Positions 1 to 25,632 of a stretch of DNA of 31,459 bases are shown piece by piece. How positions within the stretch are numbered: position 1 is the first letter of the stretch; each line of letters opens with the position of its first letter. The notes beneath the pieces were generated by a model. It made no database searches, was not told the origin of the DNA, and saw only the letters and a program-made list of their open reading frames with translations. This stretch comes from Phycisphaerales bacterium UBA1845 (lineage in GTDB: Bacteria > Planctomycetota > Phycisphaerae > UBA1845): contig DDIR01000013.1 of assembly GCA_002338715.1 (NCBI GenBank), forward strand, positions 1-31,459, given 5' to 3'. Made by a program: the position numbers and the translations under genes.

Positions 1-2
1 CC

Positions 3-671
3 TGGATTAAAAACGCTCTAGACGAGACACGTTCGAAGCGACCTCAGTTGGACGCTCTTTCAAGATTCGCCTGTTTGCGCGAATTGCTTGTGAGTGGGCA
101 TACCAAGCAATTGCATCGAGTGGCCGATCTGCCCTTGCTCGAGAAACTGCGACTCACACGACTTGGTTCGCCGGATCTGGGCTTTCTCGAAGCGGTTCCA
201 AAGCTGTGGTGGCTGGAATTCGTTCTCGGCGGAAGCAATGACTTATCAGCCATTGCGAGTGTCGACAACTTGAAGCACCTGGAGGTTTGCTGGGTCCGCG
301 GTCTTGGGGACCTTGGCTTCATATCACGCTGCACCAACCTTCAGTGGCTTGGGATTGATCGATTGAAGCAAGTTCAGAATCTTCCTGATTTCACGCGGCT
401 CAAGAAACTGCGCGCACTTTCTCTTTGCACGTTGCGAAGCCTGAAAAGTGTCGATTCCATTGAGGGGGCGCTTGCACTGGAGTGGTTTGGATTCGGTGAT
501 GCCTCCAACCTGAAGCCAGAAGACTTCCGCCGCGCCTTGCAGGCCCCTTCCCTGAAGCGCGCGACTGTCGGCTTCGGAAGCGAAAAACGGGACCGCCTGT
601 TTGAACAGATTGCGGCCGAGTACGGAATCGAAACGGAGGCCAAGTATGAGCCGTTTCGATATCAATCATAG
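3..671 (+). CDS. Leucine-rich-repeat protein, 5' end cut by window edge
   Basis: The reading frame is open from the first bases of the window to the TAG at 669-671, so the true start lies upstream; the TTG at 48 is only an internal possible start. The product has irregular leucine-rich repeats of about 22-25 residues, with recurring L-x-x-L-x-x-L patterns such as LPLLEKLRLTRL, VDNLKHLEVCWV, CTNLQWLGIDRL and LKKLRALSLCTL. Such repeats form a curved solenoid that usually binds proteins. No signal peptide or partner domain is visible because the N-terminus is missing. The stop codon lies 2 nt before a dispersed hairpin repeat, which may serve as its 3' end. LRR fold is confident; the role is unknown. 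Confidence 0.8.
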   Translation, partial: WIKNALDETRSKRPQLDALSRFACLRELLVSGHTKQLHRVADLPLLEKLRLTRLGSPDLGFLEAVPKLWWLEFVLGGSNDLSAIASVDNLKHLEVCWVRGLGDLGFISRCTNLQWLGIDRLKQVQNLPDFTRLKKLRALSLCTLRSLKSVDSIEGALALEWFGFGDASNLKPEDFRRALQAPSLKRATVGFGSEKRDRLFEQIAAEYGIETEAKYEPFRYQS

Positions 672-673
672 TC

Positions 674-867
674 GGGTGGCCTGCCTCCTTTGGAGGCGGG
701 GGAGGCGATGATCCGTGGCGCTGACTTTCCTACGCTTTGATTGTCAACACTTGTCACTGCCATAGAACCATCGACAATTTGCGAGTGCCAAAGCGTGGCA
801 CTATCACGCGCCCCGCTGAAGCACAGCGTATCATCGACTCCCCCATGTTTGAAAACATGGGACACCC
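674..867. repeat. REPIN-like element: two hairpin repeats in inverted orientation
   Basis: The left arm (674-714, plus) reads GGGTGGC, a hairpin with loop TTT at 689-691, then GGAGGCGATGATCC. The right arm (830-867, minus) has the same flanks, but its stem is CCCATGTTT/AAACATGGG. Between them, 785-803 holds a second inverted repeat, GTGCCA-AAGCG-TGGCAC. The element fills the gap between two convergent genes (ending at 671 and 904) and could act as a two-way terminator; that is inference. Confidence 0.75.
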
Positions 868-903
868 CGCCTTGGCGATGTACAACGTGGTCCGAACGAC
901 TGA

Positions 904-1920
904 CTACAGACCATCAATCCATTCCTGAACGTCCGCTTCGGCTGTTACCGGGGGGCATTGCGTTTGGTCAGTGATGCACATGTCGTCGTAAGCGAACTCG
1001 AATTGTTCGGCAGCACTTCGAAATGCCTCTTCTACTTCGGGCGGCATGGATGCATCGGACGGGTCAGGCAGGCGAGTCATGATGTTCAACCCAGCATATT
1101 CGCCGACGGGTGTTGAGCCGCAATAGGTGTACATGATCCAGTCGGGATCCGGGCGCGAGAGAATGTACCAACGTTCACGCTGCGGTTGTAGGGGCGGGTT
1201 GGTGTAGGGTACATCCAGCCGACCCGGTTCCTCTTCACTGATGCTGGGTTCTCCGATCAGGTGTACGACTCCCTGATCGCCGCAACTCCCGTCGTCAGCC
1301 GGGGCACAGAACGACGTGTGATACCACCACTGGTCGGCTCGGTAGATCCACGAGTCCGACCTGCAGGGCAGTGCGTCATATCCACCCTCCCAATTCGAAC
1401 CGGGAATGCCGCAGTTCAATCCCCGAACTTCCAGCCAGGTTCCTTCAATTTCGTCGAGGCTTTCAATGATGTAGACATCGTCGATGTTCTCGCTCGTCAC
1501 AGGGCATTGGCCATCGGTTCCTTCGGGCAATGATGGCAAGCAGCCGTTATTTGCGAAGCACTGCACGAGCGAGCCGTACAATTCGCTCGCCTGCCCTTGG
1601 GCAAGTTGGCACACCAGGTGGCAGGCCTGCTGTTCGCTTCGCGCCCCCCGAGAACCACACTCCGCGTTGCATTCAAGCGTTTCACGGCATGCGGGTTCGA
1701 AGAGGCAGGCGATCGATTGAAACAGGCAACGCGTGAGGCCACAGAAGATCAATTCGATGTCGAATGTTGCCGTGCTTTCGGTGTTGCGATTGGACTGCTC
1801 AACACTTGGTGCCGAGTGGTCTGAAGAAGTTGGCGCAAAGAAGGTCGCAGAGTCGCAACTCAGCCCCAGCGGGAGAAGTCCCAACACGCATGGAATCGCT
1901 CTGTTCACTCTTGACTTCAT
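904..1920 (-). CDS. Cys-rich exported protein, putative lipoprotein
   Basis: 338 aa. The N-terminus has basic residues, a hydrophobic stretch (about 10-20) and Cys22 in LGLSC, which suggests a type II signal peptide. The lipobox is not canonical because Gly sits at -3. After a Ser/Thr-rich linker comes a Cys-rich region (about residues 58-135) with many regularly spaced Cys, likely disulphide-bonded in the periplasm. The C-terminal half is rich in Trp, Tyr, Pro and acidic residues and contains more Cys pairs. GGTGGA lies ahead of the ATG at 1920. No family was recognised. It is convergent with the LRR gene, and its 3' end borders the REPIN-like element. The call rests on export signal and composition only. 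Confidence 0.7.
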   Translation of the reverse strand: MKSRVNRAIPCVLGLLPLGLSCDSATFFAPTSSDHSAPSVEQSNRNTESTATFDIELIFCGLTRCLFQSIACLFEPACRETLECNAECGSRGARSEQQACHLVCQLAQGQASELYGSLVQCFANNGCLPSLPEGTDGQCPVTSENIDDVYIIESLDEIEGTWLEVRGLNCGIPGSNWEGGYDALPCRSDSWIYRADQWWYHTSFCAPADDGSCGDQGVVHLIGEPSISEEEPGRLDVPYTNPPLQPQRERWYILSRPDPDWIMYTYCGSTPVGEYAGLNIMTRLPDPSDASMPPEVEEAFRSAAEQFEFAYDDMCITDQTQCPPVTAEADVQEWIDGL

Positions 1921-2112
1921 CGGCTTGGTCCACCGGCACGCGTATCAGAATTGCCAATGGATGACTGCATTCCCCTTGAGTCAAAGACCTTGGTCATTCA
2001 CATTCGAGGTATTCTAGTATGCCTCGCTCGCAATCGCCAAGTGATCACACGCAACCGGTTGCCGGGAGTGGGCAAGGCATTAACTTTGTGTGTTGCAGCG
2101 TTGGTTTGAATG

Positions 2113-2790
2113 TTATTGGATTTCGACGCGGATGAATTCGCCTGAGCGTTTCACCAGATCGTAGACTTCTTCCACGTTCCAATCGCGGCGAAAGCGGAGT
2201 TCGTATTCGGCGATGACGCGGTTATCTTGTTTCTGATGGTCGAGTGATACGCGAAGGATCGTGGCGCCGCCGGATTCGATCGCGCTTCGCCATCGGTCCA
2301 ACTCGTCGGGGTCGCTCAGCGTGATGGACACCCGCCGGTAGTGATGACTCTGCACCAGGTGGCCGACCTGCCGCATCGCCGTCAACGTGAACAGGGAGAG
2401 CGCCGCACCAACGCCCGCGACGACGTACATGCCCAAGCCGGTCGTCAAACCGAGTGCCGCGACGATCCAAAGCGAAGCGGCTGTCGTCAGCCCGTGCACC
2501 GACCAGTCGGTCTTCATGATGACGCCGGCTCCGAGAAATCCGATCCCGGTCAACACGCCATAAGCAAGTCGGGCCGGGTCGAGTCGCACGACGGTGTCTT
2601 CGCCGAGGTGGCTGTAGAGTCGAACGAAGTGCGTCGAGCCAAGCATCACCACGCAGCAGCCCAGGCAGACAAGAATGTGCGTGCGAAAACCAGCCGCCCG
2701 CCCATGGTACTCGCGCTCAAGCCCAACGGCTCCGCCGATGAGGACGCAAAGCAGCAAGCGTCCAATCGCAATCCATTGCCAGTTTTCCAC
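2113..2790 (-). CDS. MgtC/SapB family membrane protein
   Basis: Matches the MgtC/SapB family: an N-terminal hydrophobic domain with the signature GLEREYHGRAAGFRTHILVC, then GIGFLGAGVIMK and TTAASLWIVAALGL, giving about four to five membrane segments in the first 140 residues. A soluble ACT-like C-terminal domain of about 80 residues follows. Members are inner-membrane proteins linked to Mg2+ limitation or acid stress; the biochemical activity is not settled. I place the start at the GTG at 2790 because GGAG lies 8 nt upstream. The frame extends to another GTG at 2820, which would add ten residues but has no clear ribosome site. The gene stands alone, with a hairpin repeat just upstream (2842-2882). 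Confidence 0.9.
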   Translation of the reverse strand: MENWQWIAIGRLLLCVLIGGAVGLEREYHGRAAGFRTHILVCLGCCVVMLGSTHFVRLYSHLGEDTVVRLDPARLAYGVLTGIGFLGAGVIMKTDWSVHGLTTAASLWIVAALGLTTGLGMYVVAGVGAALSLFTLTAMRQVGHLVQSHHYRRVSITLSDPDELDRWRSAIESGGATILRVSLDHQKQDNRVIAEYELRFRRDWNVEEVYDLVKRSGEFIRVEIQ

Positions 2791-2841
2791 GACGTTTACT
2801 CCGAAAGGCAAGAAGCCCACCGCGCTAACAATCCGTTAAAA

Positions 2842-2882
2842 GGGTGGCCCGCCTCCTCTGGAGGTGGGGGAGGCGATGATCC
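2842..2882 (+). repeat. Solo copy of the dispersed hairpin repeat
   Basis: Reads GGGTGGC, then stem CCGCCTCC, loop TCT, GGAGGTGG, then GGAGGCGATGATCC. Flanks match the copies near 674, 3842, 10776, 11365 and 11470, but the stem differs. About 70 bp further on (2953-2970) is a short inverted repeat GTGCC-AAGCTGC-GGCAC in the same relative place as in the 674-867 element. The inverted partner arm is missing, so this looks like a truncated element. Confidence 0.7.
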
Positions 2883-2991
2883 GCGCGGCTCAAGTCTGAG
2901 ATACTCTATCAGCCCTTACGTCCCACCGCCAAGAAATCGCGAGCAGTCGGTGAGTGCCAAGCTGCGGCACCGACGAAACCGGCTCGCACCG

Positions 2992-3576
2992 TCAATGCTC
3001 TTCGCGGTGCCGCCTCAGCATGTCGACAAAGTCTCTTGCCGCGGACGCGATATCAGGAACGCCGTCCGAATCGACCCACCTCTGGACCTCTTGCTCCACC
3101 GGGTATTCCTGCCAAATCCTGTCCACCTTCACGAACGTGTCCGCGTCAATTGAAAAGAAAATGCAGTTCTGAAGCCCGATGATTATCTGAAATACAAGCC
3201 ATCTTGAGTCACTGGTGCGGTTGTCAATCAGTTGTTGCGCAAGTGGCCGTGCCGCCACAAGCGGATGCGCCTTGCTCAGCACCCAACAGACTGTCCCAAG
3301 ATGGTCTCTCGCTGCTGCTCCCGTGAGCAGCTTGGCCACGACATCCTGTTGAGTCTGAAGGCAGGCTGGGTCACTCAGCAATGTTGAGGAAATCAAAATG
3401 GGCGGTCGGCGATATTGAGCTTGGTGCTTGCTCAGGTCGTCGGCCGGCGCATTGATCACCTTGACCGAATACTCCAGATATATTCCGATCTCCCCGAGAG
3501 CGTTTCCTGCTTCCTCTGGGTCGCAAGAGTTCGCTAACTCCATCAACGTCGCAAGTTCTGGATTCATCGCTCCCAC
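2992..3576 (-). CDS. Hypothetical protein
   Basis: 194 aa from a GTG at 3576 (AGG 8 nt upstream); the ATG at 3567 is an alternative start giving 191 aa, with GGAG unusually close. No signal peptide or membrane segment is apparent. The sequence is mixed alpha-helical with a fairly acidic C-terminal part containing several Trp and Val residues. Composition and length look like a real soluble protein, but no family is recognised. It is flanked on both sides by hairpin repeats, so it is probably transcribed alone. Confidence 0.55.
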   Translation of the reverse strand: MGAMNPELATLMELANSCDPEEAGNALGEIGIYLEYSVKVINAPADDLSKHQAQYRRPPILISSTLLSDPACLQTQQDVVAKLLTGAAARDHLGTVCWVLSKAHPLVAARPLAQQLIDNRTSDSRWLVFQIIIGLQNCIFFSIDADTFVKVDRIWQEYPVEQEVQRWVDSDGVPDIASAARDFVDMLRRHREEH

Positions 3577-3998
3577 ATCATCGACCTAGAACACAAGATT
3601 CCGTGCTGACCAATTCTCTACATCCAGACGATACTACTCCGGCGCAATAGAACTCCTGCAGAACGTTGCATCTGCCAAACGACGGGTAAACAGCACCGTT
3701 TAGAGGCTGCGTAGCCGATGATCCCCGTTGCACGACATTTGATCACTTTACCAACCGTTGGACGGCCTCGCCAAGAAATCACGAACAAATGGCAAGTGAC
3801 GACAATTGTCACCAAGTGTACGATGAGCCGCTTTGGCGCTGATCATCGACTCCCCCATGTTTGAAAACATGGGCCACCCTTTGCTTGGTTGGTTGCATTC
3901 AAAAAAAGAACGATGAGTGGAGTTGCCTGCCTTTAGCTCTGATGAATTGGTCGGCAGAATTTACGACCCGGCAGCAAGCGAAGGCTCGTTATCTTCGT
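3577..3998. other. Intergenic region occupied mostly by a REPIN-like element
   Basis: No convincing gene is present. The open frame at 3618-3815 (minus) is low-complexity and overlaps the repeat. The region contains the inverted-repeat element described at 3683-3879; the rest shows nothing recognisable. Confidence 0.6.
3683..3879. repeat. REPIN-like element, left arm degenerate
   Basis: The right arm (3842-3879, minus orientation) is well preserved: ATCATCGACTCC, stem CCCATGTTT/AAACATGGG and GGCCACCC. The left arm (about 3683-3724) keeps only GGGT, a weak CAGC/GCTG pairing and the flank AGCCGATGATCC. Between the arms, GTGAC-GACAATT-GTCAC (about 3796-3812) is an inner inverted repeat, at the place where the 674 element has GTGCCA/TGGCAC. 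Total span (about 197 bp) is close to that of the 674-867 element (194 bp). Confidence 0.6.
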
Positions 3999-4292
3999 TC
4001 AATGCTGACGCGGTTTCTTTGAGCGGGTTTTGGGTTTGTGGTCGCCATTTGGCTCGATGGACACGACGTGGATGGGATCCAGCACCATCCAGTCGTCGGC
4101 GGGCTTGTCCGTTTTTAGGGTTGCGGGTTCGCGAGTTGTCTGCTTTGACGGTAATGCGATGAACATCCGCCTTGCCGTTACCAGCGCTTGCTCCGGATGC
4201 CGAATGACCACACTGCTACCGTCGGTCATTCGCATCCGAAACGATTCGAATGGCCGGACCTTTAAGAGCTTGTTGATTTCGCCAGCTTGCAT
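3999..4292 (-). CDS. Small conserved protein of the 'RPFESF' type, common in planctomycetes
   Basis: 97 aa starting at the ATG at 4292. The N-terminal half, LLKVRPFESFRMRMTDGSS followed by V-x-H-P-E, fits a family of short proteins I associate with planctomycetes, with a pattern like LL-x-A-Q-PFRPF-x-I-x-x-x-DG-x-x-x-x-V-x-HPE. Their function is unknown. The C-terminus is a short basic tail rich in Lys, Arg and Pro. The frame continues upstream into rho to 4511, but that part is antiframe rho sequence and not plausible protein. No Shine-Dalgarno is seen; TATAAT lies 6 nt before the ATG. It follows rho by 20 bp on the same strand, so read-through from rho is also possible. Confidence 0.75.
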   Translation of the reverse strand: MQAGEINKLLKVRPFESFRMRMTDGSSVVIRHPEQALVTARRMFIALPSKQTTREPATLKTDKPADDWMVLDPIHVVSIEPNGDHKPKTRSKKPRQH

Positions 4293-4298
4293 GTCTCT

Positions 4299-4304
4299 AT
4301 TATA
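4299..4304 (-). promoter_or_regulatory. Candidate -10 box (TATAAT) placed for a leaderless transcript
   Basis: A perfect TATAAT on the minus strand ends 6 nt before the ATG at 4292, so a transcript would begin at or next to the start codon. The region 17 nt upstream (ATGAAT) is a weak -35, and there is no Shine-Dalgarno. It lies between the rho stop (4313) and the small gene. Confidence 0.45.
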
Positions 4305-4312
4305 GCATCTCG

Positions 4313-5821
4313 CTACGCCAGATTCATGGTCATCAGGAATTCGGCGTTGGTGCGCGATTTGCTTAGTCTGGTTCGCAGCAATTCTATTGCTTCGACCGGG
4401 TTCATGTCGCTTAGGACTCGGCGGAGGCGGTAGACGAGTTCCAGCTCTTTTGGATCGAGCAGGAGTTCTTCTTTTCGCGTTCCGCTGGCTGCGACGTCGA
4501 TGGCCGGCCAAACCCGCTTGTCGACCAGGCGGCGGTCGAGGTGCAGTTCGGCGTTACCCGTGCCTTTGAACTCTTCGAAGATGACTTCGTCCATCTTGCT
4601 GCCGGTATCGACGAGTGCGGTTCCGATGATCGTCAGTGAGCCGCCTTCTTCGATATTACGAGCCGCGCCGAAGAAGCGTTTGGGTTTCTGCAGGGCGTTG
4701 GCATCGACACCACCGGAGAGAATCTTTCCGGAGTGCGGTATCTCGGTGTTGTGGGCGCGGGCGAGGCGCGTGATCGAGTCGAGCAGGATCACCACGTCGC
4801 GGCCATACTCGACGAGACGACGCGCTTTTTCGATCACCATCTCAGCCACCTGCACGTGCCTGGATGCCGGCTCGTCGAAGGTGGAGCTGACGACTTCGGC
4901 TGGCGTGTTGCGCTGCGTGTCGGTGACTTCTTCCGGGCGTTCGTCGATCAAGAGGATGATGACGTAGGCTTCGGGGTGGTTCTTGGAAATGGCGCAGGCC
5001 ATCTTCTGCAAGAGCACGGTTTTACCGGTACGCGGCGGGGCGACGATGAGCATACGCTGGCCCATACCGATGGGCGCGACGAGGTCGACGATGCGCATGT
5101 TCACTTCGCTCGGTTCGGTTTCGAGGATCAGCCGCTTCTCCGGGTGGAGTGCGGTGAGGTCTTCGAAGTTGGTGCGGTCGGTGACTTCATCTGGATCGGC
5201 AAAGTTGATCGCTTCGACGCGCAGAAGCGCGAAGTAACGCTCGGATTCCTTGGGTGGTCTGATCTGCCCGGCGACGGTGTGACCCGTGCGCAATCCGAAG
5301 CGACGGATCTGCGAGGGGCTGACGTAAATGTCGTCGGGGCAGGGCAGGTAGTTGTATTCGGGGCTGCGGAGGAAGCCGAAACCATCGGGCAGGATTTCGA
5401 GGACGCCCTCGCCATACATCATGCCGGTCTGATGGATGCGCTGCTTGAGGATGCGGAAGATCAGGTCCTGTTTCTTCAGGCCGCTGTGCTCTTCCAGGCC
5501 CTCGCCGCGAGCGACTTCGTGGAGTTCCGTCACCGTCATCTTCTGGAGTTCGGTGATGTGAACGCTGCCACGCTTGACTTCCTCGTACTTGGCATGGGTT
5601 TCCGGATCGACCGGTGGCGTTTCTTCGCCGCCATTGGTTGGAGGTGCCTTCTTCACGGCTTCGGGTTCAGCTTCGGCGACGGCAGACGCAGCGCGCGACG
5701 GCGACGATGAACGCGGCTTCGATGATGAAGCGCTCTTCCGCTTGGTGGTTGGTTTTGAGGAAGAGGGTTTTGAAGAAGATTTGGACGAACTGCTGCGTGA
5801 GCGGCCGGTGTTACCTGCCAT
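4313..5821 (-). CDS. rho: Transcription termination factor Rho
   Basis: 502 aa hexameric RNA-dependent ATPase/helicase that ends transcription. Residues 1 to about 85 are a disordered extension rich in Ser, Lys, Pro and Ala that E. coli Rho lacks. From about 90 the sequence follows E. coli Rho closely: the N-terminal helical domain with [12 protein letters not shown], the cold-shock-like RNA-binding domain ([28 protein letters not shown]), Walker A APPRTGKT (261-268), Walker B VVILLDS (343-349), [18 protein letters not shown] as the secondary RNA-site loop, and [13 protein letters not shown] near the C-terminus. Two local differences from E. coli are Arg for Lys181 beside Walker A and NTPA in place of the usual VKG before EVV. 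The start ATG at 5821 has GGAGG 10 nt upstream. Confidence 0.98.
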
Positions 5822-5913
5822 CGAAATTTAACCTCCACAGGGGTCGATCTAAGATCAAGCTTGGGTTTTGTATCAGAGACATAAAGGGTTGAAACACTTT
5901 GTAAACCACTCGC

Positions 5914-5933
5914 GGCGCAATTTACCTTGCGCC
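5914..5933 (-). promoter_or_regulatory. Hairpin in the rho leader
   Basis: GGCGCAA-GGTAAA-TTGCGCC (minus strand) is a perfect 7-bp stem with a 6-nt loop, about 93 nt ahead of the rho start. rho is autoregulated through its leader in E. coli, so a structured leader is worth noting. There is no direct evidence for function here. Confidence 0.35.
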
Positions 5934-6137
5934 GAAACCATGGGATATTCGCTTGTTTGAAGTGAATTGAGCGATCGGGATCGATAAACTGAGCCCATGT
6001 CACTCTTGCATTTTGAGGGAGCCACCGACCAGCGATGACGTTCTTCCTGTTTCTTATTAATCTTGTACTCTTGAACGGCTTCTAATGCAACGGCTGCCCC
6101 ATTTCTTTCTGAATCATTGCCATTTTGACGCTGCGCG

Positions 6138-6165
6138 GTGGGTGATCCGATGATGGATCAGCCAC
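6138..6165 (-). terminator. Hairpin downstream of coaE, possible terminator
   Basis: GTGG, one mismatch, TGATCC, loop GATGAT, GGATCA, mismatch, CCAC. It lies 42 nt past the coaE stop on the minus strand but is not followed by a T-run, so it may end transcription weakly or by Rho, or may just be an inverted repeat. Confidence 0.3.
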
Positions 6166-6206
6166 GGGCAATAAAAAGCGGGATTAGAAATCACCAATAT
6201 CAGAAT

Positions 6207-6863
6207 TCAATCGGTTGACGACGGGCCCTTTTCAAGGGATTGCAGAATGTCATCAACAGAGGAGCGAAGTTCATCGAGGTCCGACGAGTTGTTTGCTAAT
6301 ACATGATCGGCTCTCGTTCGCTTCTTGTCCAGTGCAAACTGCGATTTTTCTCGCTGACGCCACTGATCTTCGGACCAGCCGCGGGACCGAACGACCCGCG
6401 AAAGGCGGGTTTGGTCGTCGGCATCGACGAAAACGACGCTGTCGCACTTGGCGTCCAGACCGGCTTCGAGGAGCAGGGGGCTGTCCAACACGATCGCCCG
6501 GACACTTGGCGTGGCCCGGAACTCGGCCAACATCCGATCGCTTTCACGCGCGATTCGGGGGTGTAAAAACGACTCCAACCGCTTGCGTTGCGAGGGGTCC
6601 TGAAAGACGACGGATGCGATGGCTTTGCGGTCGAGCGTGCCCGATTCGGTGAGGATTTTTTCGCCCCACCAACCGGTCAGTTCCGCGATGACTTCGGGGT
6701 CGGCGAGCTGTTGACTATTGAGATCGTCGGAATTGATAACGGCACAACCGGCATCGGCGAAGGCGCTCGCCACCGTGGACTTTCCGGAGCCGATTCCGCC
6801 TGTGATGCCGATGACAGGCTTGTGCCCGCTGGTCGATTTGTCTGTTTCGGGTTTGTTGGGCAA
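6207..6863 (-). CDS. coaE: Dephospho-CoA kinase
   Basis: 218 aa, the usual length for CoaE, which phosphorylates the 3'-OH of dephospho-CoA in the last step of coenzyme A synthesis, in the cytoplasm. The P-loop GGIGSGKS is at 22-29, followed by the family's V-x-x-A-F-A-x-x-G and INSDDL (substrate-binding Asp), FLHPRI and VLDSPLLLEAG in the CoA-binding lid region, and the C-terminal RVVRSRGWS segment. The first 15 residues are a short hydrophilic extension. The only start in frame near the N-terminus is a TTG at 6863, with GGAG 11 nt upstream. It is divergent from the DUF368 gene, with 211 bp between. Confidence 0.95.
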   Translation of the reverse strand: MPNKPETDKSTSGHKPVIGITGGIGSGKSTVASAFADAGCAVINSDDLNSQQLADPEVIAELTGWWGEKILTESGTLDRKAIASVVFQDPSQRKRLESFLHPRIARESDRMLAEFRATPSVRAIVLDSPLLLEAGLDAKCDSVVFVDADDQTRLSRVVRSRGWSEDQWRQREKSQFALDKKRTRADHVLANNSSDLDELRSSVDDILQSLEKGPSSTD

Positions 6864-6903
6864 GCCGTTGCGGTCTCCAATTTCGTGATGACGTAATGAC
6901 GGG

Positions 6904-6909
6904 ATTATA
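6904..6909 (-). promoter_or_regulatory. Candidate -10 box for coaE
   Basis: A perfect TATAAT on the minus strand, 40 nt ahead of the TTG start. The -35 region at 16-18 nt spacing does not match TTGACA, so only the -10 element is supported. Confidence 0.4.
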
Positions 6910-7074
6910 GCGGATGGTTAGTCGATTTTCCCCATTGGAATCCGTGCGTTGTCGCGCGGCACTCGACGCGGCAGCATCAAGTCGATACAAGGTTGACCCG
7001 TCACATATGAATCACACATTGGGCGACGGGACGTTGATGAAGTCACGAGATTTTTCACCCGGGAGTTTCTCGCG

Positions 7075-8118
7075 TTGGATACGAACGAAGAGCGGAAGTC
7101 AATGATGTCGGCTGGCCATGGTTGCCTGGTGGCGATCGGTGGCGTGCTGATGGGAATCGCCAACCTGATTCCCGGTGTGTCCGGTGGGACGATGATTCTT
7201 GCGGTCGGTCTTTACGAAGAATTCATCGCGTCGGTGGCGGAGGTCAGTTCGCTGCGGTTTTCGTGGCGGCGGATTGTGTTTCTCGGATTGCTGGGCGGGT
7301 TCGCCGGCATTTCGATTGTGACGCTTTCGAGCGTGATCTTGTCGCTATTGTTGTGGCACGCACCGTTGATGTTTGCGCTCTTTATTGGTTTGACGCTTGG
7401 CGGTGCGCCGCTCCTCGTCAAGATGATTGGGAAGGCGTCAGCCGCTTCTGTTGTTGGAACGATTGTTGGCATCGCATTGATGGCCGGCGTTGCCCTGGCG
7501 CGCGACAGTGTGGCAATGCCGCGCAACACCGCGATGGATGTGGTGTCGGGGGTGGTGGGTTCGACGACAATGGTGCTTCCGGGAATCAGCGGTTCGTACA
7601 TGCTCTTGATTCTCGACCAATACGATCGCGTCATCGGCGCGGTGGCCGACCTGAAGGATCGCAACTTCGCATCGCTGCGAATCATCGCGCCGGTGGGCAT
7701 CGGTGCGGTGATTGGGATCGTCGGGCTGTCCAACCTGCTCAAGTTTCTGCTGAAGAAACACAAGGACGCGACGCTCGGTGTGCTGTTGGGGATGCTGTTG
7801 GGTTCGGTGCTCGGACTTTGGCCCTTCGATAAGCTGCCGCCGCACAAAGCCCTCGAACGCTGCACCGAAATTCAACTCGTCGAATTCGCCGAAGTGGCGG
7901 GTCTTGAAGGGGTCGCCGATCAGGAAGGGGTCGAAGCCCGCGCGAGCTACATCATCGAGAAGTGGAAAGACCACAAACACTCCGATTTCAATTCCAAGAA
8001 CATAGGGCTCGCGTCGGTGATGCTGTTGGTCGGCTTCGTCTGCACGCTGCTGCTCGGGCGGTTGGATAAGAGCAAGAGTGAGGTGAGTAATCTGAGCCCT
8101 TCGGCCGTGGATTCCTAA
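7075..8118 (+). CDS. DUF368 membrane protein, putative polyprenyl-phosphate transporter
   Basis: 347 aa, polytopic (about eight to ten hydrophobic segments). It carries the DUF368 hallmark GxxxGxANLIPGVSGGT with Y-E-E-F (residues 22-50) and the repeat-like VLPGISGSYMLLILDQYD (about 163-183), as expected for an inverted-repeat transporter fold. DUF368 proteins (PopT in Vibrio) were linked to recycling undecaprenyl phosphate across the membrane; whether this one does so is inference. A charged insertion (about 255-310) precedes the last membrane helix. Start: TTG at 7075 with GGAG 9 nt upstream; the ATG pair at 7102/7105 is an alternative. No linked envelope genes are nearby. Confidence 0.9.
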   Translation: MDTNEERKSMMSAGHGCLVAIGGVLMGIANLIPGVSGGTMILAVGLYEEFIASVAEVSSLRFSWRRIVFLGLLGGFAGISIVTLSSVILSLLLWHAPLMFALFIGLTLGGAPLLVKMIGKASAASVVGTIVGIALMAGVALARDSVAMPRNTAMDVVSGVVGSTTMVLPGISGSYMLLILDQYDRVIGAVADLKDRNFASLRIIAPVGIGAVIGIVGLSNLLKFLLKKHKDATLGVLLGMLLGSVLGLWPFDKLPPHKALERCTEIQLVEFAEVAGLEGVADQEGVEARASYIIEKWKDHKHSDFNSKNIGLASVMLLVGFVCTLLLGRLDKSKSEVSNLSPSAVDS

Positions 8119-8601
8119 CTAGTGTCTTTGCCGAAGCTCTTGATGCTATGACTTAGTTCACTTTTCTTTGGTACATTCCGAAATACATGTTTTGAATTTA
8201 TGTCCATGTCCTTCGATACCAGACAGTCTATTCGTCGCAACAAGGTCATTTACGGCAAGCGCTACGTAGCATGTGTTAACAGTCCTTGCGTAGGGTCCAT
8301 ACCTCACTTCAATGCTTTTCAAATAACTCATTGAGATTTCAGTGCCGTGAATTGAATCAAGTCAATGACGCAAAAAGGGTACTTGAACAGCGGCACCTGA
8401 GTTCGCTAAGCTCAAATCGGTCGGGTCGCCTATGTCGTCAAATCCATCTGGCGAAAACTTCAATAAGTGCTGTGCGTCGTCGCGGGCTTGGACTGTCGCG
8501 CGATTCGCATATGCGTAGGGTGCATCCGCCGGTCCAAGAAGCCTCCGGATTGGCGCATCATTCGGTTTGCTTGACCCTTTGTTTATGGAAAGGATAGACT
8601 T
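8119..8601. other. Gene-free stretch upstream of the glycine-zipper gene
   Basis: 480 bp without a convincing gene; the open frame at 8286-8597 has no ribosome site and a random-looking composition. A short phrase GCGTAGGGT occurs twice (about 8289 and 8515). By eye it is more AT-rich than the flanking housekeeping genes. Confidence 0.5.
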
Positions 8602-9855
8602 GTGAAAAAGATACTGTTTCTGGTTCCATTGTTTTGTGGTGGCGTCGCCCTAGCTGAGGGTTTGGTCGAAGTGAAGACTTCGCGATTCAGTCGCACTGAG
8701 AAAGCGACTTGGGCGAAACTAAAGCTACTGGACAATGTTGTATTTGAGGTCACCGAGTCGGACTCGAACACCATGCCCACTCCCGCGTACCTATTTGGGC
8801 GCCCGGATTCAGAGTGGTCTGAAGCTGATTTTGTCGTTGCCGAGCCGGACAATTCGCTTAGTGATAATGGATACTGGCTTTTTTGGGACAATTCCGTAGA
8901 CGCGGCTGCTCGCGAGGTGCGAGACGCTCTCGATCAAGCAACCATTGACTCAGGCGGAAATTTGATCTTCGAAGTAGTCCCTTACAGAAATAGCGTATCG
9001 AAGAATGCGACTGCAATTGAGCTCTCGGGTTCCATTCCGGTCGGCGTTCGCTCTCGTGATGGAGGGGAGGAAATATTCGAGCAGATCGTGTGGTTCAAGT
9101 CGCCAGCAGGTAGTAGTGACGAATATGTCGTTGCAAGCATGAAAGAATTCTCTGTGTCGTTTGATATTGTCCTAGATGAAAATGTTGGGACAGTAAGAGT
9201 CGTCCACCGGTCGGTGCACCCACTCTTGTATGTTGCCGGAGATGACACGAGCCATACGGATGGCAGGGGAGTCGCTCAAGCTTTCGCCGAGTTTTTTACG
9301 CAATCAGGAGATTTCAGTGACAAGGTTTTGTGGGAATCAGAATCTATCGGACTCGATCCTGAATTGCAGGAAGACGGTGAGAATACGGCAGAGAGCTGCG
9401 CGTTGGCATTTACTCGAGACTTCCACGCTGCGATGAATCAACAAGCAATCAGACTGAATGAATGTGATATGGAGCATGCAGGTTTCGATCGTGGCTTGGG
9501 GGACTGTTGCAGTACCGGTGCCGGTGTGGGCGCAGGGATAGGAGGGGGAATCGGAGCGGGGATCGGAGGTGTTGTTGGCGGCGTTGCCGGTGGGGCCGCG
9601 GGCGGAATAGGAGCGCTGCCTGGAATCGGCATCGGCGCGGGTGTCGGTGGAACAGTCGTCGGAGGGGCTGGGGGGTTTGTCGGGTGCTATTTGGGTGCAT
9701 TGATTTGCGCAATTGAAGGAAGCGACGAAGCGGACGACATGCTAGGCTATTGCCAAGAGGATGCTCGGCTTCGCATGCTCGCCGCTGTACAGCGCGCTCG
9801 CGACGAGCGAGCGCTGTGTTGCGCAGGGATTGAAGACTGTATTCCACTTCACTAA
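8602..9855 (+). CDS. Secreted protein with a long C-terminal glycine zipper
   Basis: 417 aa from a GTG at 8602, with AAAGGA 7 nt upstream. Residues 1-18 form a Sec signal peptide ending ALA. Residues 20-300 are an acidic, probably globular region without a recognised domain. Residues 306-368 are almost only Gly, Ala, Val and Ile, with repeated GxxxG and GxGxG spacing, the pattern of glycine-zipper helices that pack tightly in membranes or form pores. Cys pairs flank the zipper (Cys302-303, Cys362, Cys369, Cys384, Cys406-407, Cys413), so disulphides are likely. The next gene starts 15 bp downstream, so the two are probably an operon. A toxin-like, pore-forming or envelope role is possible but not shown. 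Confidence 0.7.
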   Translation: MKKILFLVPLFCGGVALAEGLVEVKTSRFSRTEKATWAKLKLLDNVVFEVTESDSNTMPTPAYLFGRPDSEWSEADFVVAEPDNSLSDNGYWLFWDNSVDAAAREVRDALDQATIDSGGNLIFEVVPYRNSVSKNATAIELSGSIPVGVRSRDGGEEIFEQIVWFKSPAGSSDEYVVASMKEFSVSFDIVLDENVGTVRVVHRSVHPLLYVAGDDTSHTDGRGVAQAFAEFFTQSGDFSDKVLWESESIGLDPELQEDGENTAESCALAFTRDFHAAMNQQAIRLNECDMEHAGFDRGLGDCCSTGAGVGAGIGGGIGAGIGGVVGGVAGGAAGGIGALPGIGIGAGVGGTVVGGAGGFVGCYLGALICAIEGSDEADDMLGYCQEDARLRMLAAVQRARDERALCCAGIEDCIPLH

Positions 9856-9870
9856 CGGAGCCGACTGGTC

Positions 9871-10644
9871 GTGCATTCATCTCCATGGAGTTCGGCGATT
9901 GCGTTTAGGCGTGTCTTTGTGCCTTGGATTGGGTGTTGTCTCTTGATCGTGGCGTCAGGCATAGCGCTCATGTTTCTTCATCGGGATTACGCCGGGACAA
10001 TTGGCGTTTCGATTCCCTTGGTGATGATTGGTCTGCTTTGCGCATGGATGGTTGGGCCCGTTCGCAGGTTTTATAAGCAAATGGCGGAAGGAGATTTTTG
10101 CCTGTCGTGCGGTCGTATGATCGAAGGTGGCACCACGGAATCGAATTGCGCGAATTGCGGCAGAGGCATCGCTGAGTCGATTGAGATACTCAAAGTTAAC
10201 AGAGAATCCCCAAGATTCAAACGAAATGCGGAAGCCGGATTTAGATTGCTTCCACTTGTACGCAATACGTGTTGCGGGGCGATCCGAATCGATTTTCGAA
10301 CTGCGATTCGGTATTTCATTGCTATCGGGTTTTGGTTCGTTCCGCTCAGGATCCTAGTGGGGAGAATTCCAAATAATGGTTCGATTGTTTGGCAGTTGCT
10401 TTTGTTGGCATTGCTTGTTTTTCTCGTACCCGTTGCCGTGTTTCTCTTTTACCGTTTGGGGCCGACTCGCCGATTTCACAAACGAGTTGCTGACGAAGAC
10501 TTCTGTGTGTATTGCGAGTACTCGCTTCGAGGACATGCGCAAGATGGCGCATGTCCAGAATGTGGAAAGGACATTGCGAAATCTCTGCGCATTTTGGATT
10601 GGCATCGCAATGGCAAGTCGAAGTGGATGAATGTGTTTATTTGA
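9871..10644 (+). CDS. Membrane protein with two zinc-ribbon modules (internal duplication)
   Basis: 257 aa made of two similar halves, each with two hydrophobic segments (about 18-36 and 46-62; 145-165 and 172-194), then GP-x-RRF-x-K and a zinc ribbon. The ribbons are Cys77-x2-Cys80-x12-Cys93-x2-Cys96 and Cys212-x2-Cys215-x12-Cys228-x2-Cys231, each followed by I-A-x-S and an I-L helix. The second ribbon, with YSLRG and CPECG, resembles the GYDLRG-type ribbons I associate with planctomycete membrane proteins. The ribbons are likely cytoplasmic zinc sites; function is unknown. The GTG at 9871 has GGAG 10 nt upstream. It lies 15 bp after the glycine-zipper gene, and a terminator-like hairpin follows. 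Confidence 0.75.
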   Translation: MHSSPWSSAIAFRRVFVPWIGCCLLIVASGIALMFLHRDYAGTIGVSIPLVMIGLLCAWMVGPVRRFYKQMAEGDFCLSCGRMIEGGTTESNCANCGRGIAESIEILKVNRESPRFKRNAEAGFRLLPLVRNTCCGAIRIDFRTAIRYFIAIGFWFVPLRILVGRIPNNGSIVWQLLLLALLVFLVPVAVFLFYRLGPTRRFHKRVADEDFCVYCEYSLRGHAQDGACPECGKDIAKSLRILDWHRNGKSKWMNVFI

Positions 10645-10691
10645 GCATTAGCGTGGCCAACTATATGGCCAGGCGAATTCTGAAACATGGA

Positions 10692-10728
10692 GCGGCGGGT
10701 GGTCTCTCGACCATCCGCCGCGCGTTTT
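10692..10728 (+). terminator. Probable intrinsic terminator of the zinc-ribbon gene
   Basis: A 13-bp stem (10692-10704 with 10709-10721, one G-U pair) around loop TCTC, followed by GCGTTTTAC. It lies 47 nt past the stop at 10644. The T-run is short, so the call is moderate. Confidence 0.6.
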
Positions 10729-10775
10729 ACTGTTTGGCACTCGACTCAGGCATGTACGTGGTCGGAAGTCTTACA

Positions 10776-10813
10776 GGGTGGCCCATGTTTTCAAACATGG
10801 GGGAGCCGATGAT
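10776..10813 (+). repeat. Solo copy of the dispersed hairpin repeat
   Basis: GGGTGGC, stem CCCATGTTT/AAACATGGG with a 2-nt loop, then GGAGCCGATGAT. It matches the arms at 3842-3879 and 830-867 in reverse orientation almost base for base. It sits between the two zinc-ribbon genes, and no clear inverted partner follows. Confidence 0.75.
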
Positions 10814-10975
10814 GGGTGGTCGAACGCAGCACGGTATTCTTGCAGACGCGCGTTCCTGACTGTTGGTTACTCGTGATTTTGCGGCGACGGATGCCTGGCG
10901 ATACGCTTGCTCATTGAAGACGTTGATCATCGTGTCTTGAAATTGTGTACCAAATAGCTGAGTCGGGGGTCACTG

Positions 10976-11341
10976 ATGTTACTGGAGTCAGTATGGGGGC
11001 GAACGATTTTGCCCCGCATGATGTTGCCCTATTTGCTGTCCTATTTTGTAATGTTGGGCGTCTTGCTTCTTGCGGAGTACTTCGGCTGGTTTTCCGGAAT
11101 TGTGTGTGGCGGGTTGGGTATTTCGGTGATGATCGCGATCTACGCTGCATATCAAATGGGGCCTGTGCGTCGTTTACGCAAAAGGGCGACGCAAGAGGAT
11201 TTTTGTCTGATTTGCGGCTACTCGTTGCAAGGTCTTGAGTTGGCAGAGAAATGTCCAGAATGCGGGGAGGCTATTGCCAGGTGTCGGCGCCTGCTTGAGG
11301 AATATCGAAATACAGGGTGGTGGAATCGGCGTTTTTATTAA
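10976..11341 (+). CDS. Membrane protein with one zinc-ribbon module
   Basis: 121 aa: two hydrophobic segments (about 15-35 and 40-60), then GPVRRLRKR, EDFC and a ribbon Cys77-x2-Cys80-x12-Cys93-x2-Cys96 with GYSLQG and CPECG. This is one copy of the module found twice in the protein at 9871-10644, with the Cys at exactly the same residue numbers as its first module. ATG at 10976; the upstream GGGGG is a weak ribosome site. A 330-bp gap with a terminator and a hairpin repeat separates it from its relative, so it is likely its own unit. Probable gene duplication; function unknown. Confidence 0.7.
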   Translation: MLLESVWGRTILPRMMLPYLLSYFVMLGVLLLAEYFGWFSGIVCGGLGISVMIAIYAAYQMGPVRRLRKRATQEDFCLICGYSLQGLELAEKCPECGEAIARCRRLLEEYRNTGWWNRRFY

Positions 11342-11364
11342 TCGCTGACGGACTATGATTGGAA

Positions 11365-11508
11365 GGTGGCCCATGTTTTCAAACATGGGGGAACCGATAA
11401 TCGGCTGCGACTTGCTGCGATGTTCTTGGACGGGGTTGTTTCTTGAGTGGTGGTTGATTCGGTGATTGGATCATCGGCTCCCCCATCTCAGGATGAGATG
11501 GGCCACCC
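11365..11508. repeat. REPIN-like element with two different stems
   Basis: Left arm (11365-11402, plus): GGTGGC, stem CCCATGTTT/AAACATGGG, then GGAACCGATAAT. Right arm (11470-11508, minus): ATCATCGGCTCC, stem CCCATCTCA-GGA-TGAGATGGG, then CCACCC. The flanks pair across the element while the two stems differ in sequence, yet each pairs perfectly within itself. It lies between convergent genes (ends at 11341 and 11557). Confidence 0.75.
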
Positions 11509-11556
11509 TTGCGCTTGTTGAGTCGATGGTGTGATCGGTGCTTCTGGGTTTGATTG

Positions 11557-13413
11557 CTATTGCTTAATGGCTTGTTCGCCGTAGGCGCGTTGCATCGCGA
11601 GGGCTCTGGCCTCTTCGTAGGCTGGGTTTAGTTCGGTCCAGTCGAGGCATTGGGCCAGTCGTTCTACGCGGTTTCTTAGTTGGATTCGTTGGCGGCGGTC
11701 GAGGGCGCAGAAGCGGATCATGATGTCGGCCAACTGATCGATCGAACTGCCGGTGTCGCAGTGGCGGCGTTTCAGGACGAAGATTCCGTTTTCGTCGTGG
11801 TCGGAGAACTTCGCCTGCATGAACGCACCGAACCCGGACAGGTCCGTGCAGATCGACGGAATGCCCATCACGGCGCACTCGGCTGGCGTGTAGCCCCACG
11901 GCTCGTAGTACGACGGGAACACGCCCAGATGGCAGCCGCGGACGAACTCCGGATAGTCCATCGAAAACAGCGGGTTCGTGCGGTTGATGAATTCCGGGTG
12001 GAACACCACTTTGACGCGATCGTGTTTGTTGTTGAACAGGTGGCGATGTCGCAGGTGGGCGAGCACCGGGTCGGTCGCGTCGTTGACCATGTGGTGGGTG
12101 ACGATCGGCGGCAGTTCCGTTTGTGAGCGCGAGTGAAGCAGGCGCTTGAGCACGACGATCTCATCGTTGGACAGCAAATCTTCTGTATCCGGCAACTCGC
12201 CCCGCGCGGTGGCGTCGAAGAGTCTCTTCTCAAAATTCCTGGCGATCTCTTCGCACGAACTCTTGAGTTCCGCGAGCATCGAATGGTTTTGCAAGACCTT
12301 GACGTTGAGGTGGTGCGTGGGGGCGGCAGTCACGATGAAGGCGACGACGGTGACGTCTGAACCGGCGTGCATCAGGTGATTGTTTAGGCGCGACAGTCCT
12401 TCGATGAACAGGTCGATGCCCTTGTTGTGATACTCGTAGCGACCCGACGTGAACATGTAGACGGTCTTGTCGAGATCAAACGGCGACGATCTGAAGAAGT
12501 GGGCTTGCACGAAGTGATGGATTTTCTCTTTCGCCTCGCGATGGAGGTTTTGAAATTCGTGCAATGCCGCGAATTTTTCGACGCGCAATCCGTTGGGCAA
12601 GACTTTTTCGGGGCGACGCTTGAGCAGGTGGTCGGCTTCGATGGCCGTGATGTCGGAGACGGTCGTGAACACGTCGGCGCCATGGGCGGCTGCCCGCTCG
12701 ATGCAGTATCGGTGATAGATCTGACGATCGCCGGCTTCCTGATCGGGATTGATCCAGGGGAGGCGTTCGTAGAAGTTTTGCGTTGAAGCGCAGAGGTATC
12801 TTCCCAGCAGCGTCGCGTGGGTGGTGAAGACGGTGGCGACGGGGATGTTGCGTTTCTTGATCAGCGGGATCGCTGCGCCGGCGAGCCACTCGTGAAACTG
12901 CGCGATGATCGGGCGCTTGTGGTGGAGCGAGTTGGTCAGCGCTTCAAAGAACTGAGCCAACAGGTATCCGAACGACACGCAGTCGTTGGTTTCGACATCG
13001 CCATCGGGATAGTTGATGTTGCAGTCGGTCCAGAACGAGTGGCGGTATTCGTTGAGCTTGTATGCGGCAGCGGATACGTCGATGAGCAGCACGCGCGGGT
13101 TACCGGTGACGAGCCAGCGCCCGTAATGGATTTTCATGCCGGCAGCGCGAAGCGCTTCGATGGTCGGGCCAAGGGTCGGGCCCAGTTCGAGTTCCTCGAA
13201 TTCGACGTCGGCTTTGTGCTCGACATACGGTCCGATGAGGCAGTACCGATCGCCCCAATCTTCGGTGGTGACAGCCGCTTTGGAGCGGAGGACGGTGTAG
13301 ATTCCGCCGACCTGATTGCAGACTTCCCAGGCGATTTCGAAGAGGATCGGTTTCGATTGATCTTCTTTGGGGTCGGCTTTCTTGAGGCGACTTATGTTTC
13401 GGATGGATGACAT
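11557..13413 (-). CDS. Glycogen synthase, eukaryote-type (GT3 family)
   Basis: 618 aa. Transfers glucose from UDP-glucose to the non-reducing end of glycogen. The sequence follows animal/yeast GYS along its whole length rather than bacterial GlgA: FEIAWEVCNQVGGIYTVL (25-42), FHEWLAGAAIP (173-183), TTHATLLGRYLCA (197-209), RQIYHRYCIERAAAH (230-244), GRYEYHNKGIDLF (324-336) and SYYEPWGYTPAE (501-512) with the catalytic E-x7-E (Glu504, Glu512). Near the C-terminus, DRRQRIQLRNRVER keeps all six Arg of the glucose-6-phosphate sensing helix (573, 574, 576, 580, 582, 585). Start ATG at 13413 has GGAG 9 nt upstream; the frame opens further to 13542, but that part looks non-coding. Confidence 0.96.
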   Translation of the reverse strand: MSSIRNISRLKKADPKEDQSKPILFEIAWEVCNQVGGIYTVLRSKAAVTTEDWGDRYCLIGPYVEHKADVEFEELELGPTLGPTIEALRAAGMKIHYGRWLVTGNPRVLLIDVSAAAYKLNEYRHSFWTDCNINYPDGDVETNDCVSFGYLLAQFFEALTNSLHHKRPIIAQFHEWLAGAAIPLIKKRNIPVATVFTTHATLLGRYLCASTQNFYERLPWINPDQEAGDRQIYHRYCIERAAAHGADVFTTVSDITAIEADHLLKRRPEKVLPNGLRVEKFAALHEFQNLHREAKEKIHHFVQAHFFRSSPFDLDKTVYMFTSGRYEYHNKGIDLFIEGLSRLNNHLMHAGSDVTVVAFIVTAAPTHHLNVKVLQNHSMLAELKSSCEEIARNFEKRLFDATARGELPDTEDLLSNDEIVVLKRLLHSRSQTELPPIVTHHMVNDATDPVLAHLRHRHLFNNKHDRVKVVFHPEFINRTNPLFSMDYPEFVRGCHLGVFPSYYEPWGYTPAECAVMGIPSICTDLSGFGAFMQAKFSDHDENGIFVLKRRHCDTGSSIDQLADIMIRFCALDRRQRIQLRNRVERLAQCLDWTELNPAYEEARALAMQRAYGEQAIKQ

Positions 13414-13477
13414 GAAGGGTCGCTCCAGGTCGGACGGTAACAATGGCACCAGCTCGAGTGTGGATTGACAAAGTGTC

Positions 13478-13506
13478 ATCATAGCAATTGCATCGGCAGA
13501 TGTCGC
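13478..13506 (-). promoter_or_regulatory. Candidate promoter of the glycogen synthase gene
   Basis: Minus strand: GCGACA (13501-13506), a 17-nt spacer and TATGAT (13478-13483). This predicts a start about 58 nt ahead of the ATG. -10 matches 5 of 6 and -35 matches 4 of 6 consensus bases. Confidence 0.4.
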
Positions 13507-13676
13507 GTTTGGGCGGAGGGCTTGCCCAAATTCATGCGACAATTCGTGCGGTGTGAAATGGCGCAGCCGATGGGGTTGGAATGAACCTCGATGACCGAGA
13601 TTGCCAGGAATACGGGCGCAGTCGGCCAGAATTGCGCATCCGATTGGATGGCGCCTGGGCTCGAAGTTCTTGGGAT

Positions 13677-24011: not shown

Positions 24012-24051
24012 AGAATTGCAAGAACTGTCCTGACACATCGAGACGCAGTTG

Positions 24052-25593: not shown

Positions 25594-25632
25594 TGGGGCA
25601 TTTCAAGGGGTTGCAGCGCGAGGAGGTGGTCG

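Follow-up and report, generated by a model that had tools for sequence, protein, structure and literature searches.

RAYT-associated REPINs with two unlike arms in a Phycisphaerales genome and its relatives

Repetitive extragenic palindromic sequences (REPs) are widespread bacterial repeats. A 2013 survey (PMC3733652) separates REP homodimers from heterodimers, in which the partners differ in stem or loop, and finds that dimers often favour unlike partners, for which it sees "no obvious explanation"; the partners may fold separately or together, and protection from nucleases is suggested. Here we describe a REP family first noticed between positions 674 and 11,508 of contig DDIR01000013.1 of Phycisphaerales bacterium UBA1845. 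The window is this whole contig, 31,459 nucleotides long (contig C88 of the draft genome G000, 5.25 Mb in 148 contigs). The family forms inverted REP doublets forming hairpins (REPINs), it is associated with a REP-associated tyrosine transposase (RAYT), and the two arms were unlike in every doublet counted.

Among described systems, the closest are the REP heterodimers of HH type (GTAG families, among them P. aeruginosa GTAG-24 and Enterobacteriaceae GTAG-3; PMC3733652), which are likewise inverted pairs whose partners' stems or loops differ. In the bacterial interspersed mosaic elements (BIMEs) of E. coli, two arm types, y and z, are nearly always combined, as y-z1 and y-z2 mosaics, and changing the upper stem of an E. 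coli REP to its complement leaves binding and cleavage in place (PMC8266576). The REPINs GI-GIII of Pseudomonas fluorescens are also hairpin-forming doublets linked to a RAYT, for which clover and hairpin alternatives are discussed; according to a proposal in the Figure S11 legend, RAYTs act on the clover rather than on the stable hairpin (PMC3116915, 2011). Insertion sequences of the IS200/IS605 group (IS608, ISDra2) share a Y1 HuH transposase, which acts on single-stranded hairpins near both ends, and a Class 3 Y1 family of Planctomycetes, Acidobacteria and Proteobacteria is defined by a Y....Q motif and a CnGA foot (PMC6006769). Among the papers listed in searches of the open-licence PMC literature, none dealt with REPINs of Phycisphaerae or with the balance between clover and hairpin.

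An arm of the present family consists of GGGTGG, a 9-bp stem with a loop of 2-4 nt, and GGAGNCGATGAT. Two types are distinguished by stem position 6, which is G in type A and C, rarely T, in type B. All 13 inverted doublets of two good arms in G000 joined an A stem (CCCATGTTT and kin, CCCAGGATC) to a B stem (CCCACCTCC and kin). An automatic scan was extended to relatives, using regions taken from the best-scoring model matches and not at random; 49 of the 49 doublets kept, from 10 genomes, were A-B, two of the B arms having T at position 6. Random re-pairing of arms within each genome gave a mean of 27.9 A-B doublets and a maximum of 41 in 20,000 trials. Doublets with identical stems were never observed, compared to a mean of 10.2 and a minimum of 2 upon re-pairing (5000 trials). 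In a further set, 10 of 10 doublets had G versus C at position 6 (G007, G008, G009, G026 and G034, four of these genomes being new), and the doublets of G008, G026 and G034 combined stems CCCATGGCT and CCCACCTCT or CCCATCTCT with another flank. Unlike-armed doublets span 14 genomes in 11 genera. All 49 and all 10 are heterodimers in the sense of the survey; compared to its HH type, they have a mostly GTGG foot, a base-pair flip at stem position 6 that is kept across genera, and Phycisphaerae-like hosts.

These counts leave out 2 of 51 doublets: in L072 the second arm was a chance hairpin, and in L073:2211 the true A arm, with which this doublet is heterotypic too, was masked by a chance hairpin. 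One of the 11 doublets listed in the further set (L309) was also omitted as a chance hairpin; that set listed only doublets whose stems agreed in at least 4 positions, and identical arms would have appeared in it. A doublet on C100 of G000, missed by the scanner, was heterotypic. The regions of G012 (7) and G014 (4) contained 8 and 5 arms and no doublet, and the doublet scan gave none from those of G019 (7), G023 (5) and G024 (6, plus L092).

An earlier note, made from the window sequence, had proposed that both strands of a stem change together, structure being kept over sequence, and the whole genome agrees with it. With a search pattern fixing the flanks and the first stem base only, and leaving six inner stem positions free, 25 copies were found, compared to 0 for the reversed pattern. 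Standard pairs filled 222 of their 225 stem cells. At the inner six positions 149 of 150 cells were paired, whereas re-dealt 3′ strands gave a mean of 111 and a maximum of 126 (2000 shuffles); within types, pairing (66/66 and 83/84 cells) was above all 2000 shuffles in each. An alignment of 27 arms (A3, 24 distinct rows) showed changes on both sides in 6 of 9 pairs (48 cells, compared to a shuffled mean of 16.2). Arms from the scanner were allowed up to one mismatch, and their pairing percentages are therefore no evidence for pairing. Between genera the A stem reads CCCAGGTCC, CCCATGTTT, CCCATGTCC or CCCATGGCT, and pairing survives variation at positions 5, 8 and 9 in A and at 5 and 9 in B. 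We conclude that the stems drift with compensatory changes within each end of an asymmetric doublet.

This leaves little room for the note's other suggestion, a copying enzyme that tolerates stem swaps. Many stem versions with full pairing are what such an enzyme would produce, but the differing stems are mostly the A and B ends of one asymmetric doublet, and the two classes go together in each counted doublet (49/49 and 10/10). Free swapping is already contradicted by this and we give it hardly any credence. An inner hairpin, said in the same note to change in step with the stems, is visible in some window copies; the coupled change is not general, as 18 spacers of 95-150 nt were hardly stabler than shuffled ones (mean z -0.6), and we rejected this hairpin as a conserved part of the element.

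A covariance model of the arms, applied to G000 by scoring 150 of 4716 first-look candidates, recognised 41 arms at E<0.01 and 43 at E≤1, so that the family is not confined to the few copies of the window; such a confinement would have refuted the note's reading. The foot was GTGG in 36 of the 41 matches and GTAG, ATGG, GTGA, GTGC and GTGT in one each, a count that is not fully independent of the model, which was built from GTGG-type arms. Among 60 genomes (G000 and 59 relatives), 30 had matches at E≤0.001.

The note had also advised looking for a RAYT elsewhere in the genome. G000 has five Y1-type genes, and one of them, C68:7502-8080, is flanked by arms of the family at 7449+, 8105+ and 8260-. 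Its product reaches 90.9 bits with NF047646 REP_Tyr_transpos (cut-off 80), carries HuH at residue 61 and, 87 residues further on, Y at 148, and matches the solved structure 4er8, TnpArep (E 9.5e-7), which we take to be the E. coli protein. With 20.7 bits against the IS200/IS605 model NF033573, under the cut-off of 55, it differs from the transposases of that group and is not an IS200-family TnpA. Assignment to the Class 3 Y1 family was rejected as well: the RAYT has YCHKNP where PMC6006769 gives Y....Q, and the foot is GTGG instead of CnGA. The Y1 genes at C25, C100 and C126 adjoin palindromes of their own, and next to the one at C56 no palindrome was evident.

RAYT orthologues in three relatives are likewise accompanied by the family. 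In G006 and G009, A as well as B arms occur on each side of the gene; in G003 an A-B doublet adjoins one side, and the other shows a model match. Where identity to the RAYT reached 58% over a match of 162 residues or more, as in 12 of the 60 genomes, the model always had matches (7 to 98). With a looser cut (E≤1e-50), matches were present in 15 of the 20 genomes with such a RAYT and 15 of the other 40 (Fisher p 0.013). We conclude, with high confidence, that this is a REP/REPIN family with its cognate RAYT, a known kind of mobile-type repeat, because it combines a GTGG foot of the GT[AG]G type, a 9-bp stem, outward inverted doublets and a RAYT flanked by the same multicopy repeats. Among named records, four encode a RAYT closely related to this one; they are titled Phycisphaerae (2), Planctomycetota (1) and Alphaproteobacteria (1, probably mislabelled).

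Two details concern the gene itself. The closest orthologue, 88% identical (G003 C10:121493-122071, L084), has an in-frame TAA, and G003, which is assigned to the genus of the window genome, keeps family REPINs. In G000, a type A arm (L031 1949-2004 = C68:7449-7502) lies upstream of the RAYT gene, with 12 nt between its end and the start codon; judging from this position, it may sit in the 5′ untranslated part of the mRNA, and self-regulation is possible.

We then calculated what the unlike stems do to folding. Two single-strand folds were compared for the 49 natural doublets, with DNA parameters and soft constraints: a long hairpin, in which arm pairs with arm, and a four-way clover made of an outer GGGTGG/CCACCC stem, the A hairpin, an inner GGAGNCGATGAT stem and the B hairpin. 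Clover minus long energy was +1.1 kcal/mol on average, and the clover was at least as stable in 16 of 49. With arms made alike, the difference rose to +19.9 and +19.0 kcal/mol and the clover was as stable in 0 of 49 both times, so that the effect of the unlike stems on the calculated balance comes to about 18 kcal/mol. The long form of all 49 doublets has a mismatch at position 6, on both strands. By this calculation, long hairpin and clover are nearly equal in natural doublets.

E. coli offers a similar picture. In 250 kb of K-12, 23 of the 24 inverted REP neighbours counted were y-z, and the calculated long form and clover are again nearly equal: for outward y-z pairs clover minus long was -1.6 kcal/mol on average, compared to +27.4 and +29.4 when made alike (7 of 8 pairs scored, a stricter pattern having missed one, and three of the 7 lying in one tandem array). 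The E. coli repeats differ, however, in having GTAG and a conserved mismatch bulge in the stem, whereas stems here are perfect or near-perfect; we rejected an assignment to E. coli-type BIME REPs. GTAG also points inward in 16 of the 24 E. coli pairs, while GTGG points outward here. The GI-GIII REPINs of P. fluorescens are, for their part, described as symmetrical (palindromic) in PMC3116915, whereas the arms here are unlike, with 38-161 nt between the two hairpins of a doublet.

The same genome provides families with identical arms. Two further REP families of G000, with GTAG feet, GTAGGGTCCGC (46 strict matches) and GTAGGNTGGGC (144), have palindromes flanking the Y1 genes at C25 and C100. 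Of the 11 and 12 partner hairpins found, 10 and 12 had the identical stem, the sole exception being chance-like (8 and 3 arms had no partner hairpin). Clover minus long was +11.9 (n=10) and +13.5 kcal/mol (n=11) in these homotypic REPINs.

Taken together, we propose the following explanation, which we think somewhat more likely than not. The copied unit would be the asymmetric doublet A-spacer-B with GTGG facing outward, and the RAYT of C68 would bind each arm, folded back as a single strand, by its GTGG foot and would move or copy the whole doublet. Stem bases could drift as long as each arm self-pairs, and coupled stem changes would arise because drift is allowed only on that condition. The A and B stems would stay unlike mid-stem, G versus C at position 6, because the two arms would otherwise collapse into one long hairpin; the element would be poised between this hairpin and a four-way clover that presents both arm hairpins to the enzyme. 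The poise itself is calculated; its selection is an inference, which we hold with clearly less confidence than the classification. More tentative still, and in our opinion rather unlikely as a whole, is the wider idea that unlike arms are a selected and recurrent solution, reached independently here and in E. coli: mismatched mid-stem, the two REP types would hold long hairpin and clover at nearly the same energy, and each REPIN would be a two-state element of which only the clover is a RAYT substrate.

REP heterodimers have already been described, and we judge the deep conservation of unlike arms to be the notable part of the present family, as it makes their unexplained preference testable. 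Every counted doublet is unlike, the difference lies at one base pair, and families with identical arms serve as controls in the same genome. The family is a clean substrate set for the heterodimer preference and for the clover-as-substrate idea; its unlike arms may be kept by selection, and they offer a test of how REPINs must fold to move.

Several observations weigh against the explanation that we propose. Two families of the same genome with Y1 genes of their own have identical arms; therefore unlike arms are not generally needed. Next to the RAYT orthologue of G007 (56% identical) both arms found have G at position 6 (L094), one doublet elsewhere in G007 being heterotypic. G001 and G004 carry A-B REPINs with no close RAYT (best match 46% identity in G001, and 35% over 65 residues in G004), and REPINs may outlive their RAYT there. 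In the fold calculations, junction energies are uncertain by some kcal/mol, the made-alike doublets are of our own construction, and RNA parameters favour the long form (+4.9 kcal/mol, clover as stable in 6 of 49, compared to about +27 with arms alike). Finally, copies within one genome are related, so that doublets are not independent events, and if a single ancestral A-B unit had been copied, heterotypy would persist with no selection at all. The first REPIN may simply have had unlike arms, and copying of the whole unit would then perpetuate a functionless difference. REPINs at corresponding places have the same arms across species, spacers are partly alike among the REPINs of G000, and PMC3116915 argues that REP doublets are the replicative unit. 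Some REPINs are indeed common to corresponding places in related species: beside the window gene 11557-13542, the B stem CCCATCTCA is kept in G003 and G004 and has one change in G001, therefore some copies are old. Against pure inheritance, both stems have turned over between genera while the position 6 difference stayed intact in 49 + 10 doublets, and E. coli, whose stems are different, has a heterotypic system as well. We regard inheritance alone as doubtful.

Protection is possible and deserves a little more weight, though we are inclined against it: unlike arms would keep the doublet from forming a long perfect hairpin, open to removal by SbcCD-type nucleases or through replication slippage. 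This is in line with the survey's suggestion for REP heterodimers, and the same calculated weakening of the long hairpin speaks for it, but homotypic REPs with 7-bp arms thrive in G000, although their hairpins are shorter. A polarity of the element, with A and B as its left and right ends and a RAYT that tells them apart, as happens with IS200/IS605 ends, would make the mismatch a by-product. The arms do differ beyond position 6: the N base of GGAGNCGATGAT is T in 29 of 49 A arms and G in 37 of 49 B arms, and agrees between the two arms in just 5 of 49 doublets; at stem position 8 every one of the 49 B arms has C-G, while A is mixed; and in G009 the flanks beyond the stem are arm-specific as well. 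The orientation of A and B to the RAYT is not fixed, however: the gene has an A arm directly upstream in G000 and G006 and a B arm there in G009. We consider polarity unlikely. Least attractive apart from free swapping is an RNA-level element kept by the host, such as an mRNA end protector or a terminator. Two window REPINs (a and e, Table 1) do lie between convergent reading frame ends. Nevertheless, no known RNA family matched window positions 1-13000 in Rfam at E≤0.1, a simple intrinsic-terminator scan of 1-12000 placed no site on an arm, and mobility explains the RAYT-linked multicopy pattern; we find this improbable.

The window features are collected in Table 1. The seven good arms and one degenerate arm of the earlier note are where it placed them, except that arm 828-867 reads GGGTGT and not GGGTGG, and its three inverted pairs, announced as about 145-197 bp apart, have the spans tabulated. 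By eye, and against the list of open reading frames (ORFs), all 8 arms of the window fall between likely genes.

Table 1. Arms and doublets of the family in the window, with examples of the other REP families of the genome.
Feature	Position	Strand	Remarks
REP arm type B	674..714	+	stem CCTGCCTCC / GGAGGCGGG; 58.5 bits (covariance model)
REP arm type A	828..867	-	stem CCCATGTTT / AAACATGGG; foot GTGT; 57.9 bits
REPIN a (B-spacer-A)	674..867	.	194 bp; between 3′ ends of convergent ORFs 48-671 + / 904-1920 -
REP arm type B	2842..2882	+	covariance-model match; no adjacent partner found
Decayed type B arm	3683..3727	+	intact B arms at same place in G001, corresponding place in G003
REP arm type A	3840..3879	-	64.6 bits
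REPIN d (decayed B-spacer-A)	3683..3879	.	197 bp
REP arm type A	10776..10815	+	covariance-model match
REP arm type A	11364..11403	+	53.6 bits
REP arm type B	11468..11508	-	stem CCCATCTCA / TGAGATGGG
REPIN e (A-spacer-B)	11364..11508	.	145 bp; between convergent ORFs 10976-11341 + / 11557-13542 -
Further REP families, examples	C25:51048-51129; C2:5916-5979		G000

Comparison with relatives helps to read the incomplete copies. The DNA adjoining the site of arm 3683 in G001 is 88% identical to the window, and given the intact B arms of G001 and G003 there, this arm is a decayed B. Arm 2842 is followed 3′ by REPIN-spacer-like sequence, 2842-2945 matching a G001 REPIN at 76%. Positions 10773-10936 match, at 75%, the A half of a REPIN that G001 has next to the same downstream gene. 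Arms 10776 and 11468 of the window are set apart by a stretch the size of a gene, with an extra A arm at 11364, and the G001 doublet is uninterrupted; arm 11468 is likely the old partner of arm 10776.

A layout recurs at 2842-3879, 10776-11508 and C68:7449-8301: arm X, a gene of ~370-590 bp, arm X again, then an inverted arm Y. The ORF inserted at 10776-11508 (121 aa) looks, by eye, similar to the last part of ORF 9871-10644, which precedes it, as though gene and arm had been duplicated in tandem. Elsewhere in the window, at 22473-27174, three tandem ORFs of 512-514 aa look similar to the eye and have RRSFI, RRSFL and RRTFI close to the N-terminus.

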